Shown: positions 7,250-12,207 of the stretch, piece by piece
How positions within the stretch are numbered: the stretch's first letter is position 1
How the letters are laid out: each line of letters begins with the position of its first letter
Assembly: GCA_016935665.1 (NCBI GenBank)
Contig: JAFGQN010000058.1
Coordinates: 1-48,369 of the forward strand
Direction: 5' to 3'
Length of the DNA stretch: 48,369 bases
From: Deltaproteobacteria bacterium
Lineage (GTDB): Bacteria > Myxococcota_A > Polyangia > JAAYKL01
Notes under the pieces: model-generated
Told to the model about the DNA's origin: nothing
The model's input: only the letters and a program-made list of their open reading frames with translations
Database searches by the model: none
Position numbers and translations under genes: made by a program

Positions 7250-8167
7250 ATGGCAAAAATTACCATGGATATAATTAAAGAACTTCGTGAACGAACTGCC
7301 GCAGGAGTGGTTGATTGCAAAAAAATTCTCGCTGAAACCGACGGTGACATTGAGAAAGCCATTGAAGAGCTGCAAAAACGAGGTATCGCCAAAGCTGCCA
7401 AAAAACAGGGACGCATCGCGGCGGAAGGCAAAGTGGGCATGTTCGCAGAAGAGGGCGGCAAACTGGTCGCGCTGGCTGAAATAAACTGCGAAACAGACTT
7501 TGTTGCCAAAGGTGAGAAGTTTGAGGAATTGTACAACACCATCGCCAAACAGGTGGCTCAGATGAAAACCGGCGACGTGTCTGCGGTGCTCGCTGCCAAT
7601 TATCTGGGCGATGAGAAAATTACGGTTGAGCAGGCCATTACCAATTTTACAGCCGCCACCGGAGAAAAAACCACATTGCGTCGCGTTGCCTGCTTCGAGA
7701 CAGCCAATGGTTGTGTGGGAAGCTACAATCACGATGCCGGTCGTATTTGCGTGATGGTGGATGTGGCCACCAGCGACGCTTCGTTGGCCACCAGTGATGA
7801 TTTTGTCGAGATGGCCAACGATGTGGCGATGCACATTGCCGCCATGAATCCGTCCTATGTTCGCGCAGAAGAAATTCCCGCTGCGGACGTGGAGAAACAA
7901 ACGGAAATTTTCACCGCTCAAGTGATTGAGGAAGGCAAACCCGAAGCCATCGCCCCCAAAATTGTGGCAGGCAAAGTGGGTAAATGGAAAAAGGAAAACT
8001 GCCTGGTTGACCAGATCTTCGTCAAAGACAATGATCTGACTATCGCCAAGCTTCTTGCCAAATTTGGTGACGACGTAACCATTCGCAAGTTCGTCCGATA
8101 CGAAGTGGGCGAGGGTATGCAAAAACGAGTCAACGATCTCGCCGCTGAAGTCGCGGAGATGATGTAA
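7250..8167 (+). CDS. tsf: Elongation factor Ts
   Basis: Nucleotide exchange factor for EF-Tu. The N-terminal UBA-like segment (IKELRERTAAGVVDCKKIL), the EF-Tu contact motif TDFVAKGEKF and the closing coiled segment are all present. Length of 305 residues is normal. It lies 56 bases after rpsB with an AAAGGA site before ATG 7250, and 7 bases before pyrH. Confidence 0.98.
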   Translation: MAKITMDIIKELRERTAAGVVDCKKILAETDGDIEKAIEELQKRGIAKAAKKQGRIAAEGKVGMFAEEGGKLVALAEINCETDFVAKGEKFEELYNTIAKQVAQMKTGDVSAVLAANYLGDEKITVEQAITNFTAATGEKTTLRRVACFETANGCVGSYNHDAGRICVMVDVATSDASLATSDDFVEMANDVAMHIAAMNPSYVRAEEIPAADVEKQTEIFTAQVIEEGKPEAIAPKIVAGKVGKWKKENCLVDQIFVKDNDLTIAKLLAKFGDDVTIRKFVRYEVGEGMQKRVNDLAAEVAEMM

Positions 8168-8174
8168 TCCATCC

Positions 8175-8888
8175 ATGTCCAAAGACTCGCTAAAGGTAGT
8201 CCTCAAGTTGTCTGGAGAGGTTCTGGCGGGAGATGCCGGCACTGGAATCGATGGCGCAACTCTCGATGCAACCGCACAGCAGTTGGTTAAAGCCCAGAAG
8301 GAAGGCGCCAGAGCGGCGTTGATTCTGGGCGGTGGCAACATCTTTCGAGGGTTGGGCGCTGCTGCGGAAGGTATGGACCGCGTCACGGGCGATGAAATGG
8401 GAATGCTGGCCACCGTGATAAACGGACTGGCACTTAAAGATGCCATTTTGCGTGCCGGGGGGCAGGTTCAGCTGTTCACCGCGCGACCGCTGGGACCTAT
8501 TGGCAAACCCTATGTTCGGGACGATGTCAAACAATGTATGGATGCCGGCACATTGGTGATTTTGGCCGGTGGCACTGGGAATCCCTTTTTCTCAACAGAT
8601 TCCGGCGCGGCCCTTCGTGCAGCGGAACTGGGATGCGATTTGTTTTTAAAAGGGACCAAGGTGGATGGCGTTTATGACAAAGACCCGGCCAGACATGCCG
8701 ATGCCCTTCGATACGACACGTTGTCCTTTGACGAGATGATTGAGAAAAAGCTGGAGGTCATGGATTTGACGGCCGCCACGTTGCTGCTTCAGAATAACGT
8801 CAGTGCGCTGGTCTATAAAATGACTGAACCCAATGCCATCTACAATGCCGCTCTGGGCAAATCGGATGGCACTCGACTCCATCCATAA
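8175..8888 (+). CDS. pyrH: Uridylate kinase
   Basis: UMP kinase of pyrimidine nucleotide synthesis, amino acid kinase fold. Seen motifs: KLSGEVLAGDAGTGID at the N terminus, LGGGNIFRGLG, GTGNPFFSTDSGAALRA and KGTKVDGVYDKDP. 237 residues, as expected. It is the third gene of the rpsB-tsf-pyrH operon. frr, which often follows, is absent here; the next gene is convergent. Confidence 0.97.
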   Translation: MSKDSLKVVLKLSGEVLAGDAGTGIDGATLDATAQQLVKAQKEGARAALILGGGNIFRGLGAAAEGMDRVTGDEMGMLATVINGLALKDAILRAGGQVQLFTARPLGPIGKPYVRDDVKQCMDAGTLVILAGGTGNPFFSTDSGAALRAAELGCDLFLKGTKVDGVYDKDPARHADALRYDTLSFDEMIEKKLEVMDLTAATLLLQNNVSALVYKMTEPNAIYNAALGKSDGTRLHP

Positions 8889-8944
8889 CGCGTTTCGTTT
8901 CTTTTCACAGCTGATGTGATCGTGATTTTTGTGGTGTCCCGCAA

Positions 8945-10534
8945 CTATTCCGGCGCTGCATTCAATGTGATGACGAAAACCGTACCGATACCCAGTTCAC
9001 TCTCCACTTCAATGCCGCCATTGTGATTTTTCAGGATATTTCGAACAATAGATAGCCCCAGACCGGTGCCTTTGCCCACATCTTTAGTGGTGAAGAACGG
9101 TTCAAATACCCGGCGAAGGTGCTTCTTTTCAATGCCACATCCGGTATCGCGAACGGAAATAACAATCATGGCTTCCGGTGCACGGCGTGCCGATATAACA
9201 ATCTGTCCGGTGTTTTCTCTCAGCGCGTGACAGGCGTTGGTCACAAGATTCACAAACACCTGTTCCATTTGCCCTTCGATTCCAAAAAAACCTGGAAGAT
9301 TGTCTTCGCACTGAATGGTGACGTCGGCGTTGGTTTCCCGAATGACGTGTTCACAAAACGAAACGGAACGGCGAATAATTCTTTCCAGACTTAGAAAATC
9401 CGGGCTATCAGCGGATGGCCGGGCATACGCCACCAGATCCCTGGTAAAGGATTTGATTCTCTCTGCGCCATCGATGATGCTTTGCATCTTCTGGCGGTCG
9501 GATTCTTCTATTACGGGGGCCAGTTTGCGGGAGAGGTAATTGGCATAAACGGAGATGGAGGTCAGCGGGTTGTTCAGCTCATGGGCCACCCCGGCGGCCA
9601 CCTGTCCAAGCGTGGCCAGTTTTTCCGAATGGATAACCTGCCGCTGAAGGTCTTTTACCATGGTTAAATCCTGCCCCACGAAAATAACTCCTTCAACCTG
9701 TCCCAGTGAATTATAAACCGGTGCGGAATTGAATGCGATGTGGGCCACCTCGTCGCTGTTGTCTTTAAAGGGAAATTTCATTTCGATGTTGGTTGCCGGT
9801 TCGCCATGTATCGCGCTGAGTATGAACGGCAGCAATCTGGCCCGGTTGGCTGAAGGGACCAACGCCAGGAATTCCATTCCCATGATCTCTTCGCGGGTAA
9901 GCCCTGTGAGCGTTTCAAATGTTTTATTCAGCAGATATATTTTGCCGTCACGATCCACCACCACCACGGGGGCATTGGCGTTGTCGAGCAGTTTTTTCCA
10001 GTAGTTTTTAAGCACGAGCGTGTCGCTCATGAGTTTGGTGTTTCGAAGCGATGCCACCAGAAGATGAACGAACGGTAAAGATGCATTTCGATAGACTTCG
10101 AGTTTGTCGGTGGCTTCCCTAAGTTCCAGATTCATCATTCCGTAAAGATTTTTTCTGTCACAGAGCAGCAAACCGAATCCCGCAGCGCCTTCTTCAAAAA
10201 TTGGGACATACGCGTCGTGCTGAGTGATGTCCGCCTGCGATAGAACCAGATCTCGTTCTCCATCTTTCAGTGTGAATCCTTCCAGCGCCCGAGACGTAAT
10301 GCGAAAGTGCTCCCGCTCAGACGCCTTGAGGCGACCGTTGGCGTAAACCAAATCAAAATGGTGGCTTTCCTCTTTCAGTAGACGAAAGCTGAGCAGACAC
10401 TCGGGAAACAGTTTTTCGAACGTGTTTGCAAATAATTGCAGTAACTCGTCCTTGGCCATTGTAACGTGAATTTCCTGAGAGACAGCAACAAGGGACTGGA
10501 TAAACAGAGGGCTGGTGGATAGAGAATTGATCAT
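8945..10534 (-). CDS. Sensor histidine kinase with GAF-like and PAS domains
   Basis: A soluble 529-residue kinase. The N-terminal ~170 residues look like a GAF-type sensor. A PAS domain follows (from about 180: NANAPVVVVDRDGKIYLLNKTF). The DHp H-box is GVAHELNNPLTSI, and the ATPase domain is complete: N-box NLVTNACHAL, DTGCGI, FFTTKDVGKGTGLGLSI. No membrane segment is seen, so it senses an internal signal. Its ATG shares one base with the stop of the upstream kinase-like gene (TGATG), so the two are translated together. No response regulator lies nearby. It converges with pyrH. Confidence 0.88.
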   Translation of the reverse strand: MINSLSTSPLFIQSLVAVSQEIHVTMAKDELLQLFANTFEKLFPECLLSFRLLKEESHHFDLVYANGRLKASEREHFRITSRALEGFTLKDGERDLVLSQADITQHDAYVPIFEEGAAGFGLLLCDRKNLYGMMNLELREATDKLEVYRNASLPFVHLLVASLRNTKLMSDTLVLKNYWKKLLDNANAPVVVVDRDGKIYLLNKTFETLTGLTREEIMGMEFLALVPSANRARLLPFILSAIHGEPATNIEMKFPFKDNSDEVAHIAFNSAPVYNSLGQVEGVIFVGQDLTMVKDLQRQVIHSEKLATLGQVAAGVAHELNNPLTSISVYANYLSRKLAPVIEESDRQKMQSIIDGAERIKSFTRDLVAYARPSADSPDFLSLERIIRRSVSFCEHVIRETNADVTIQCEDNLPGFFGIEGQMEQVFVNLVTNACHALRENTGQIVISARRAPEAMIVISVRDTGCGIEKKHLRRVFEPFFTTKDVGKGTGLGLSIVRNILKNHNGGIEVESELGIGTVFVITLNAAPE

Positions 10535-12171
10535 CAGGAATCCTCAGGGGCGTCGTTGGAACCACTGGACCGCTCGAGATCGATGATTTTCGAACGCCCC
10601 ACATAATCTTTGGTGGTGTATTCGGTTAATTTGCTCAATTTTCGGACGATTGCAGTCATGCGATCCACTTCCTGCTCCATGGCATTCAACAGTCGTGTCG
10701 TATGACCCTCGGAATCGCTCAGCACCCTTTTGAACATGGCAAGGCTGGTGAGTACTGCCGTCAGCGGCTGGTTCAGTTCGTGTGCAGCGGCTCCCGCAAC
10801 TTCCATAATCGCGGTTTGCTTTTCGGATTTTATTAATTGCTCCTGAGCTTCCACCAACTGTTTTGCCGTCATGCGTTCTTCGGTGACATCACGCATGGTC
10901 AGCAGTGTCATGCCCTCGGAACCGAGCAGTGCCGCAGAAGTGGACACTATTTTTTTGGCAGATTCGGTATCCGTTGGGGCGAAAATCTGAAGGTCGATGG
11001 ATATGCGTCGTCCACGTTCGCTTTGCTCAATCAGAGATTCAAACTGGGAAATTTGATCCTGAGGCAGCAGGTTGAAAAACGGAACCCCTTTTATCTCGGA
11101 CACCTGATGCCCCAAAATGGCGGCGCCTTCGGGATTAATGAAGACCACCACTCCGGAATCGCTGAGGACCACCATGCCGTCCACGGCGCCATTGAAAAAA
11201 TCCTCGTAGGGTTGCAACGCGGCCAAACGGTTTTGCGCCTCGTTTTGAACGCGTTTGATTTGCTGGTCCTTTTTATGCAGAGATTCGGTGATTTCGTGAT
11301 TTCTAAGGGCGATTGCCGTGGCGTTGGCCACAGTTTGACAAAACACCAGCTCCCGCTGATGAAACATCTCACGTTTGTCTGAATACCGAAGGAAGATGAC
11401 GCCAAGAACGTTGTCTTCTTCAACAATGGGAAACAGAGCGATGGATTTAACGCTAACGCTGCGTAACTTGGGCAATACGCTGTGCAGCACCTTGGAATCG
11501 GTTACGTCGGAGACGATCAGTGGGCTGGCAGTTTCCACAACACTTTTGATTTCGGGATATCCATCCAGATTGATAATTAAATCCTGAATTTCAGCATCAT
11601 CGCTGGAGGCAATCACCAGTCCCAGGTCGCCCTCCGGCCGGACCAGTACCACTGAACCTCTGTCCGCATGCAATTCCGCAGACAAAATGGAGATCATGTC
11701 GTACAGGCTATCGAGCAGATCTCCGGTCCCAACCAGCTTGGATGTGATCTCGATGAGCATCCACGAATCGCGAACCTTAAAGGCCAGTTGTTCAGCGGTG
11801 GAGATGCGTTTGGCCTGGGCGCCCACTCGCGCCAGCAGACTGAATACAGTAAAGGGGGACACCAGCACATCGTCAACTGAGGCATTCATGAGTTGACCCA
11901 CCAAATCTGTATAGCCGTCGATGATGGCGATAATGCCAACCTGCCTGGACTCATTTTCGCGCAGCGCCTGGCAGAGTGCGAGCACTTTTTCAACGTTTAG
12001 TTGCGTATCAATCAGAAACAGCCGGCTGAGGCCGGTTTCCACTGCCTGAATGGCTTCTTCTTCTGTAGAAATCAGCACCAGAGAACAATCCGCTTGTTGT
12101 AACCCCTCTTTAATTTTCTGGTGTAACTGAATATCTGCGGTCGCGAGTGCGATAGTTTGCGGCTGAATCAT
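10534..12171 (-). CDS. Receiver-GAF-PAS-DHp protein lacking a histidine-kinase ATPase domain
   Basis: Domains in order: a receiver-like domain (about 1-130, with LFLIDTQL at the acceptor position but Ser in place of the conserved Lys, VLVSPF), a GAF domain (about 140-290), a PAS domain (about 330-440, GAVDGMVVLSDSGVVVFINPEG), and a DHp helix with the H-box AAAHELNQPLTAVL. The protein then ends within about 60 residues: there is no N-box, DxG or GxG motif, so it cannot bind ATP like a kinase. The frame opens at TTG 12207, but ATG 12171 follows a promoter so closely that the mRNA may be leaderless. It overlaps the next kinase gene by one base. A partner role for that kinase is inferred. Confidence 0.8.
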   Translation of the reverse strand: MIQPQTIALATADIQLHQKIKEGLQQADCSLVLISTEEEAIQAVETGLSRLFLIDTQLNVEKVLALCQALRENESRQVGIIAIIDGYTDLVGQLMNASVDDVLVSPFTVFSLLARVGAQAKRISTAEQLAFKVRDSWMLIEITSKLVGTGDLLDSLYDMISILSAELHADRGSVVLVRPEGDLGLVIASSDDAEIQDLIINLDGYPEIKSVVETASPLIVSDVTDSKVLHSVLPKLRSVSVKSIALFPIVEEDNVLGVIFLRYSDKREMFHQRELVFCQTVANATAIALRNHEITESLHKKDQQIKRVQNEAQNRLAALQPYEDFFNGAVDGMVVLSDSGVVVFINPEGAAILGHQVSEIKGVPFFNLLPQDQISQFESLIEQSERGRRISIDLQIFAPTDTESAKKIVSTSAALLGSEGMTLLTMRDVTEERMTAKQLVEAQEQLIKSEKQTAIMEVAGAAAHELNQPLTAVLTSLAMFKRVLSDSEGHTTRLLNAMEQEVDRMTAIVRKLSKLTEYTTKDYVGRSKIIDLERSSGSNDAPEDS

Positions 12172-12178
12172 GTAATGC

Positions 12179-12207
12179 ACTATATCTGTTAATCGCCAAA
12201 AGCTCAA
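12179..12207 (-). promoter_or_regulatory. Promoter giving a possibly leaderless kinase-pair mRNA
   Basis: Minus strand: TTGAGC (12202-12207), 17-base spacer, TATAGT (12179-12184). Only 7 bases separate the -10 box from ATG 12171, and no Shine-Dalgarno sequence precedes that ATG, so transcription may start at or next to the start codon. Confidence 0.5.

Follow-up and report, generated by a model that had tools for sequence, protein, structure and literature searches.

A coupled sensor pair from myxobacterial relatives that is probably a natural two-protein histidine kinase

The window analysed here, a stretch of DNA of 48,369 nucleotides, carries two overlapping genes on its minus strand; the first encodes P1, a sensor protein that ends in a phospho-accepting DHp (HisKA) domain without a catalytic ATP-binding (CA) domain, and the second encodes P2, a complete sensor kinase. 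The two are probably a natural two-protein kinase rather than the product of a broken gene, because the pair has been retained throughout a class of myxobacterial relatives. With somewhat more belief than doubt, we propose that P1 and P2 form a natural split kinase of the HisKA type, in which the CA domain of P2 would phosphorylate the His of P1 and the sensory inputs would converge on P1~P. If this is true, the pair is a widespread, single-copy HisKA split kinase in which acceptor and kinase each have sensors of their own, with natural fusions and with lineages that have no adjacent kinase.

Results

The stop of P1 and the start of P2 have one base in common, as the sequence-only reading of this DNA had stated; in TGATG, the same A belongs to the stop TGA of P1 (10534-10536) and to the ATG of P2 (10532-10534) (Table 1). 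The start of P1 is the ATG at 12171, which is also used by the orthologue L031, with a TTG at 12207 as a possible alternative. The pair is flanked by two plus-strand genes that we take, from their sequences, to be pyrH and cysK, and a search for a viral origin returned no phage match. A close relative's P1, 84% identical, is found in a record of assembly JAFGXQ01, which is among the Myxococcota genomes from Zodletone spring (PMC11821767).

Table 1. Positions of the two genes, their domains and motifs, and the small DHp-like proteins of related loci
Feature	Position	Strand	Basis
P1, DHp-only protein, 545 aa, pseudo-receiver–GAF–PAS–HisKA, without CA	10534..12171	-	ORF + Pfam
P1 degenerate receiver, residues 1-124	11800..12171	-	residue check; Pfam Response_reg sub-threshold
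P1 GAF, residues 151-291	11299..11721	-	Pfam
P1 PAS, residues 322-433	10873..11208	-	Pfam
P1 DHp (HisKA), residues 441-516	10624..10851	-	Pfam HisKA 3.6e-8 + family alignment
P1 His464 codon CAC, predicted phosphoacceptor, 155/155	10780..10782	-	family alignment
P1 C-terminal tail, residues 518-536, signature YxTxxYVGxxxIxDL	10564..10620	-	family alignment
TGATG, P1 stop / P2 start overlap (coupling)	10532..10536	-	sequence
P2, complete sensor kinase, 529 aa, GAF-like–PAS–HisKA–HATPase_c	8945..10534	-	ORF + Pfam
P2 N-terminal region, residues 1-175, GAF-like, weakly assigned	10010..10534	-	GAF_2 in 5/40 homologues
P2 PAS, residues 179-294	9653..10000	-	Pfam
P2 DHp, residues 309-373, His318 codon 9581-9583	9416..9610	-	Pfam + alignment
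P2 CA (HATPase_c), N, G1, F, G2 boxes intact	8957..9277	-	Pfam + alignment
Small His-to-Asn proteins	G000:C170:37466-37765 (L185); G000:C162:7526-7816 (L186); G001:C493 (L187); G001:C290 (L188); G002:C3 (L189)

Pfam bears out the earlier description of P1 as a protein with GAF, PAS and an intact H-box and without an ATPase domain: GAF, PAS and HisKA are present, HATPase is absent, and His464 lies within HELNQPL. P2 had been described as a full GAF–PAS kinase, which stands for the kinase part, as PAS, HisKA and HATPase_c (E = 8e-26) are all found by Pfam, His318 lies within an intact H-box (HELNNPL) and HisKA is followed by a HATPase_c with the N, G1, F and G2 boxes of a complete sensor histidine kinase. 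Its N-terminus is only GAF-like, since Pfam gave no GAF match in the first 175 or so residues of the window's P2 and GAF_2 in only five of 40 homologues. The domain order of P2 is that of the NtrB/AtoS-type PAS–HisKA–HATPase kinases, and its best NCBIfam match is AtoS (280 bits against an equivalog cut-off of 646); unlike those kinases, P2 has no adjacent response regulator and is coupled to P1.

The receiver of P1 is degenerate in the window. Where a canonical receiver has an acidic pair, the phospho-Asp, a Thr/Ser and a Lys, P1 has T, A, D, I and S, so that in the window's family the phospho-Asp position alone is retained, and the Response_reg score of 18.2 bits lies below the Pfam cut-off of 30.2. 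The sequence-only reading was right that this receiver is atypical and has no conserved Lys; its further suggestion that the receiver adds to the picture did not hold up, because across 155 P1 proteins all five catalytic residues are present in 48 (10 of these unpaired with a kinase), the domain is degenerate in 67 and it is undetected in 40, and so it does not belong to the core. Of the 117 adjacent pairs, 82 have a P1 whose receiver is degenerate or undetected, from which we judge that the pair works without it. By this comparison the degeneration seen in the window is a trait of its lineage, and the receiver is dispensable, an optional input. On the same count we rejected the receiver as a defining part of the pair, and also the idea that phosphate is generally relayed through the receiver of P1 itself.

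The P1 family occurs as one copy per genome in 232 of the 318 genomes of the class (Myxococcota) searched with a profile of the P1 DHp and tail at E 1e-20, and the P1 DHp and tail profile at E 1e-15 found it in 65 of 237 genomes sampled across the phylum. A scan of genome contigs retrieved only close relatives and one distant Paenibacillus match, and no description of the family was found in the literature. When 68 full-length members were scanned with Pfam, HisKA and PAS were present in all 68 and none matched any HATPase model. The P1 frame contains no CA domain at 152 of 155 loci, the other three being fusions to the partner, and the orthologues end shortly past the same conserved tail. The window's own genome provides an internal control, as its other retrieved HisKA proteins continue into a CA domain unless the retrieved DNA stops short; P1 and some small DHp-like proteins with a His-to-Asn change depart from this rule. 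Because HATPase is missing from all 68 homologues scanned, the absence of the CA domain from P1 is, as judged by this family-wide comparison, ancestral. The earlier reading had reasoned that homologues of the first gene with an ATPase domain would point to a local truncation, and none was found. That P1 is a kinase truncated locally, through gene decay or faulty assembly, is hardly credible, as nothing speaks for it beyond the missing domain itself, and we rejected a local truncation on the class-wide lack of the CA domain.

We identified how P1 is associated with its kinase by counting a locus as paired when a CA-bearing reading frame follows P1 on its strand by no more than 3.5 kb. By this measure the 155 P1 loci comprise 117 with a CA-bearing kinase directly downstream, three with a fusion in the same frame, 28 with none adjacent and seven at a contig edge. 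A possible P2 start lies no more than 20 nt from the P1 stop in 109 of the 117 pairs, most often as a 4-base overlap (68 pairs). The three fusions (L168, L182, L183) all have the order DHp1–tail–DHp2–CA; L168 is a PAS–PAS–DHp1–tail–DHp2–CA protein of 624 aa, L182 and L183 are 1135 aa each, and L182 reads receiver–GAF–PAS–DHp1–tail–linker–DHp2–CA. Fusion of two genes classically points to proteins that work together. Whether the pair is conserved as a unit, a question left by the sequence-only reading, can be answered from these 120 adjacent or fused loci: as gene order and overlap indicate, the two genes are kept together, their translation is coupled, and in some genomes they are fused.

The 28 genomes with P1 and no CA-bearing kinase within 3.5 kb downstream count against a fixed two-protein kinase, and the P1 genes in them keep both the His and the tail. 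A search of these genomes with a P2 profile gave modest matches, the best at 1e-77 and none at 1e-60 in 17 of the 28, on a scale that has no true-orthologue baseline score. With no strong P2 orthologue elsewhere in the genome, P1 would there have to depend on other kinases or on a receiver, and we take these unpaired genes as an argument that P2 is not the only kinase able to act on P1.

The phospho-accepting His of P1 is invariant (155 of 155), the adjacent Glu at +1 is kept in 152 and Gln is found at H+4 in 154. The Glu is replaced by Gln, Arg and Lys in three members of family f29 (L171, L179 and L180), all of which keep the His. We take f29 to be Bradymonadia. In HisKA kinases, the kinase reaction requires Glu(+1), which the phosphatase reaction does not, and Thr or Asn at H+4 is required for the phosphatase reaction only (PMC3510030). 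With His and Glu kept and Gln at H+4, P1 looks as if it has been retained for phosphorylation by a CA domain, and its phosphatase function would be reduced or absent; it departs from the bifunctional H-E/D-x-x-T/N motif, to which P2 conforms with Asn in 116 of 120 partners. Loss of phosphatase function in P1 is a prediction, to be read with the caution that Gln at H+4 occurs also in FixL-type kinases.

The partner kinases are complete. Of 40 scanned with Pfam, all have HATPase_c and 39 have HisKA, and across 120 partners the N-box Asn and the G1 Asp are invariant. Their own His is kept in 118 of 119 that are readable, the gap in L201 being a frame artefact (the record segment begins out of frame) that was excluded from the losses; as P2 almost always keeps this His, it is presumably able to act alone. 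The one loss is in L069 (G036, partner kinase 7276-8958), where the His of P2 is Ala in a diverged DHp (GVLAELDDPMMS), the CA domain is intact (HATPase_c 6.6e-25), and the neighbouring P1 has an intact His and no detected receiver. To judge from these residues, acceptor and kinase are both intact in that pair only when the CA of P2 is combined with the His of P1. L069 is one genome, with no close relatives to confirm the loss, and the other P1 genes examined in its order have no adjacent kinase, so that P2 there may be decaying.

The C-terminal tail of P1 is near-invariant, at the level of the P1 H-box, with Y518, T520, Y523, V524, G525, D531 and L532 all but invariant, and it sits where a CA domain would begin. 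It aligns by eye with the linker and first strand that open a CA domain (AYARPSADSPDFLSLERII in P2), after which P1 stops, and this suggests a docking role for the tail, which we propose as a candidate docking element. An AlphaFold model of the P1 monomer from four orthologues is poor (mean pLDDT 55, with DHp and tail below 50) and was read for secondary structure alone, which is consistent with receiver, GAF, PAS and a helical hairpin. A similar tail, KYQSKPYMHGKIVDLEPSS, is carried outside the phylum by a 219-aa receiver–DHp protein without a CA domain on plasmid pHRM2a of Desulforapulum autotrophicum (L280:4644-5303), annotated 'response regulator' and placed directly after a 1316-aa PAS hybrid kinase.

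Discussion

The results allow us to propose a series of linked steps for signalling through the pair. P2 would bind ATP and its CA domain would phosphorylate the His of the P1 DHp, besides or instead of its own His, in a P1:P2 complex that possibly contains mixed DHp dimers. The input of the P1 GAF–PAS and that of the P2 sensor region would thus converge on P1~P, which would donate its phosphate to a response regulator encoded elsewhere. From the H-E-x-x-N of P2 against the H-E-x-x-Q of P1, we predict that P1 acts mainly as phosphodonor and P2 as kinase/phosphatase. Phosphorylation of P1 by the CA of P2, which the sequence-only reading had suggested for a possible heterodimer of the two, is indirectly supported by the invariance of the His and the near-invariance of the Glu. 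Mutual information between the P1 DHp and the P2 DHp–CA was calculated for 120 pairs (effective number 67), and its top pairs appear to reflect clade differences.

The unpaired P1 genes and the pHRM2a relative keep alive another reading, in which P1 serves as a hub for histidine phosphotransfer, as Spo0B and ChpT do or a DHp that takes the part of an HPt in a relay. Its His would be phosphorylated from its own receiver, where that is canonical, or from the receiver of another protein and would pass the phosphate on, with P2 as one of several upstream kinases. The 28 unpaired genes with an invariant His, the canonical receivers among the P1 proteins (ten of them in unpaired genes), the REC–DHp relative with its similar tail beside a sensor kinase, and the three f29 members that have the His without the kinase-required Glu all agree with such a hub. 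However, Glu(+1), which is tied to the kinase reaction (PMC3510030), is otherwise kept, the receiver is degenerate or undetected in most pairs, and the fixed partner is a full kinase and not a receiver protein; we consider a hub rather unlikely. Residue conservation bears likewise on a regulatory role, in which P1 would be a pseudokinase-like subunit that forms a DHp heterodimer with P2, its sensors modulating P2 and its own His being unused (compare RetS/GacS and DivL/CckA). One coupled unit does make two sensor proteins, and P2 is complete alone, but a His and a Glu without a use should hardly persist class-wide at the frequencies found here, which makes this explanation quite improbable.

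The split kinase that we favour has to be compared with those already characterised. Split kinases have been defined and modelled with CheA3/CheA4 of Rhodobacter sphaeroides, and modelled to allow ultrasensitive, switch-like signalling (PMC3591291). In that system CheA4 phosphorylates CheA3 in trans (PMC3591291, PMC6829392) and, as in P1–P2, the phospho-accepting His and the ATP-binding catalytic domain are on two proteins. CheA3/CheA4 are however of the CheA type with an HPt P1 domain, belong to a chemotaxis cluster, and CheA4 has no His domain of its own, whereas P1–P2 uses a HisKA DHp and P2 keeps a full DHp–CA core. Hik36/Hik43 of Synechocystis, called a split histidine kinase and found to interact by two-hybrid (PMC7656254), has a similar division with the HPt on one protein and the CA on the other, but is of the CheA/PilL type and not HisKA, is encoded by genes that lie far apart and has no GAF–PAS sensor halves. 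Both characterised split kinases that we found in the literature are of the CheA type. Measured against them, P1 and P2 have acceptor and catalytic domains on separate proteins, asymmetrically in that P2 keeps its own HisKA, and belong together at the 117 adjacent and three fused loci among 155; inability of the partner to autophosphorylate alone is not what its sequence indicates, as the His, Glu and CA boxes of P2 are nearly always kept, with L069 as the exception. On these features the pair fits the expectation for a split kinase of the HisKA type, although an asymmetric one, since P2 retains its own DHp.

In SMART, 1556 of 42417 HisKA proteins were counted without HATPase, 711 of them with an HE/DxxN/T motif, and some were suggested to be split kinases (PMC3591291). 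This set includes proteins of P1's kind, but no family or partner was named in that count. With Gln at H+4, P1 is not among the 711 'bifunctional' proteins, and it has a defined partner and a signature tail. Through P1, proteins with HisKA and without HATPase, long counted, would become open to testing as a family and not as annotation noise. A DHp-like helical hairpin with a His and without a working CA domain is used in relay by Spo0B, ChpT and RedE of Myxococcus. P1 differs from these in its several sensor domains and its kinase-type H-E-L-N-Q box.

Small stand-alone DHp-like proteins of about 94-104 aa, in which the phospho-accepting His is Asn (e.g. ASINDLNQPLTS), are confined, among 59 relatives, to the window's genus. 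Their best matches outside their own group are to the P1 DHp, so that they look like phospho-dead copies of it and are possibly decoys. We tentatively entertain a wider reading, about which we are more doubtful than convinced, that P1–P2 is a previously undescribed single-copy family of HisKA split kinases, common to the class, in which the conserved tail defines the DHp-only half, takes the place of its CA domain and binds the partner kinase as a docking element, and to which the phospho-dead decoys would add control in the window's genus. Several f29 genomes (L163, L172, L173, L177 and L184) also encode, some 1.5-4 kb downstream of P1–P2, a CheY-like protein that stands alone (e.g. RKVMILDDNILDVMEVE) and is a possible phosphate target.
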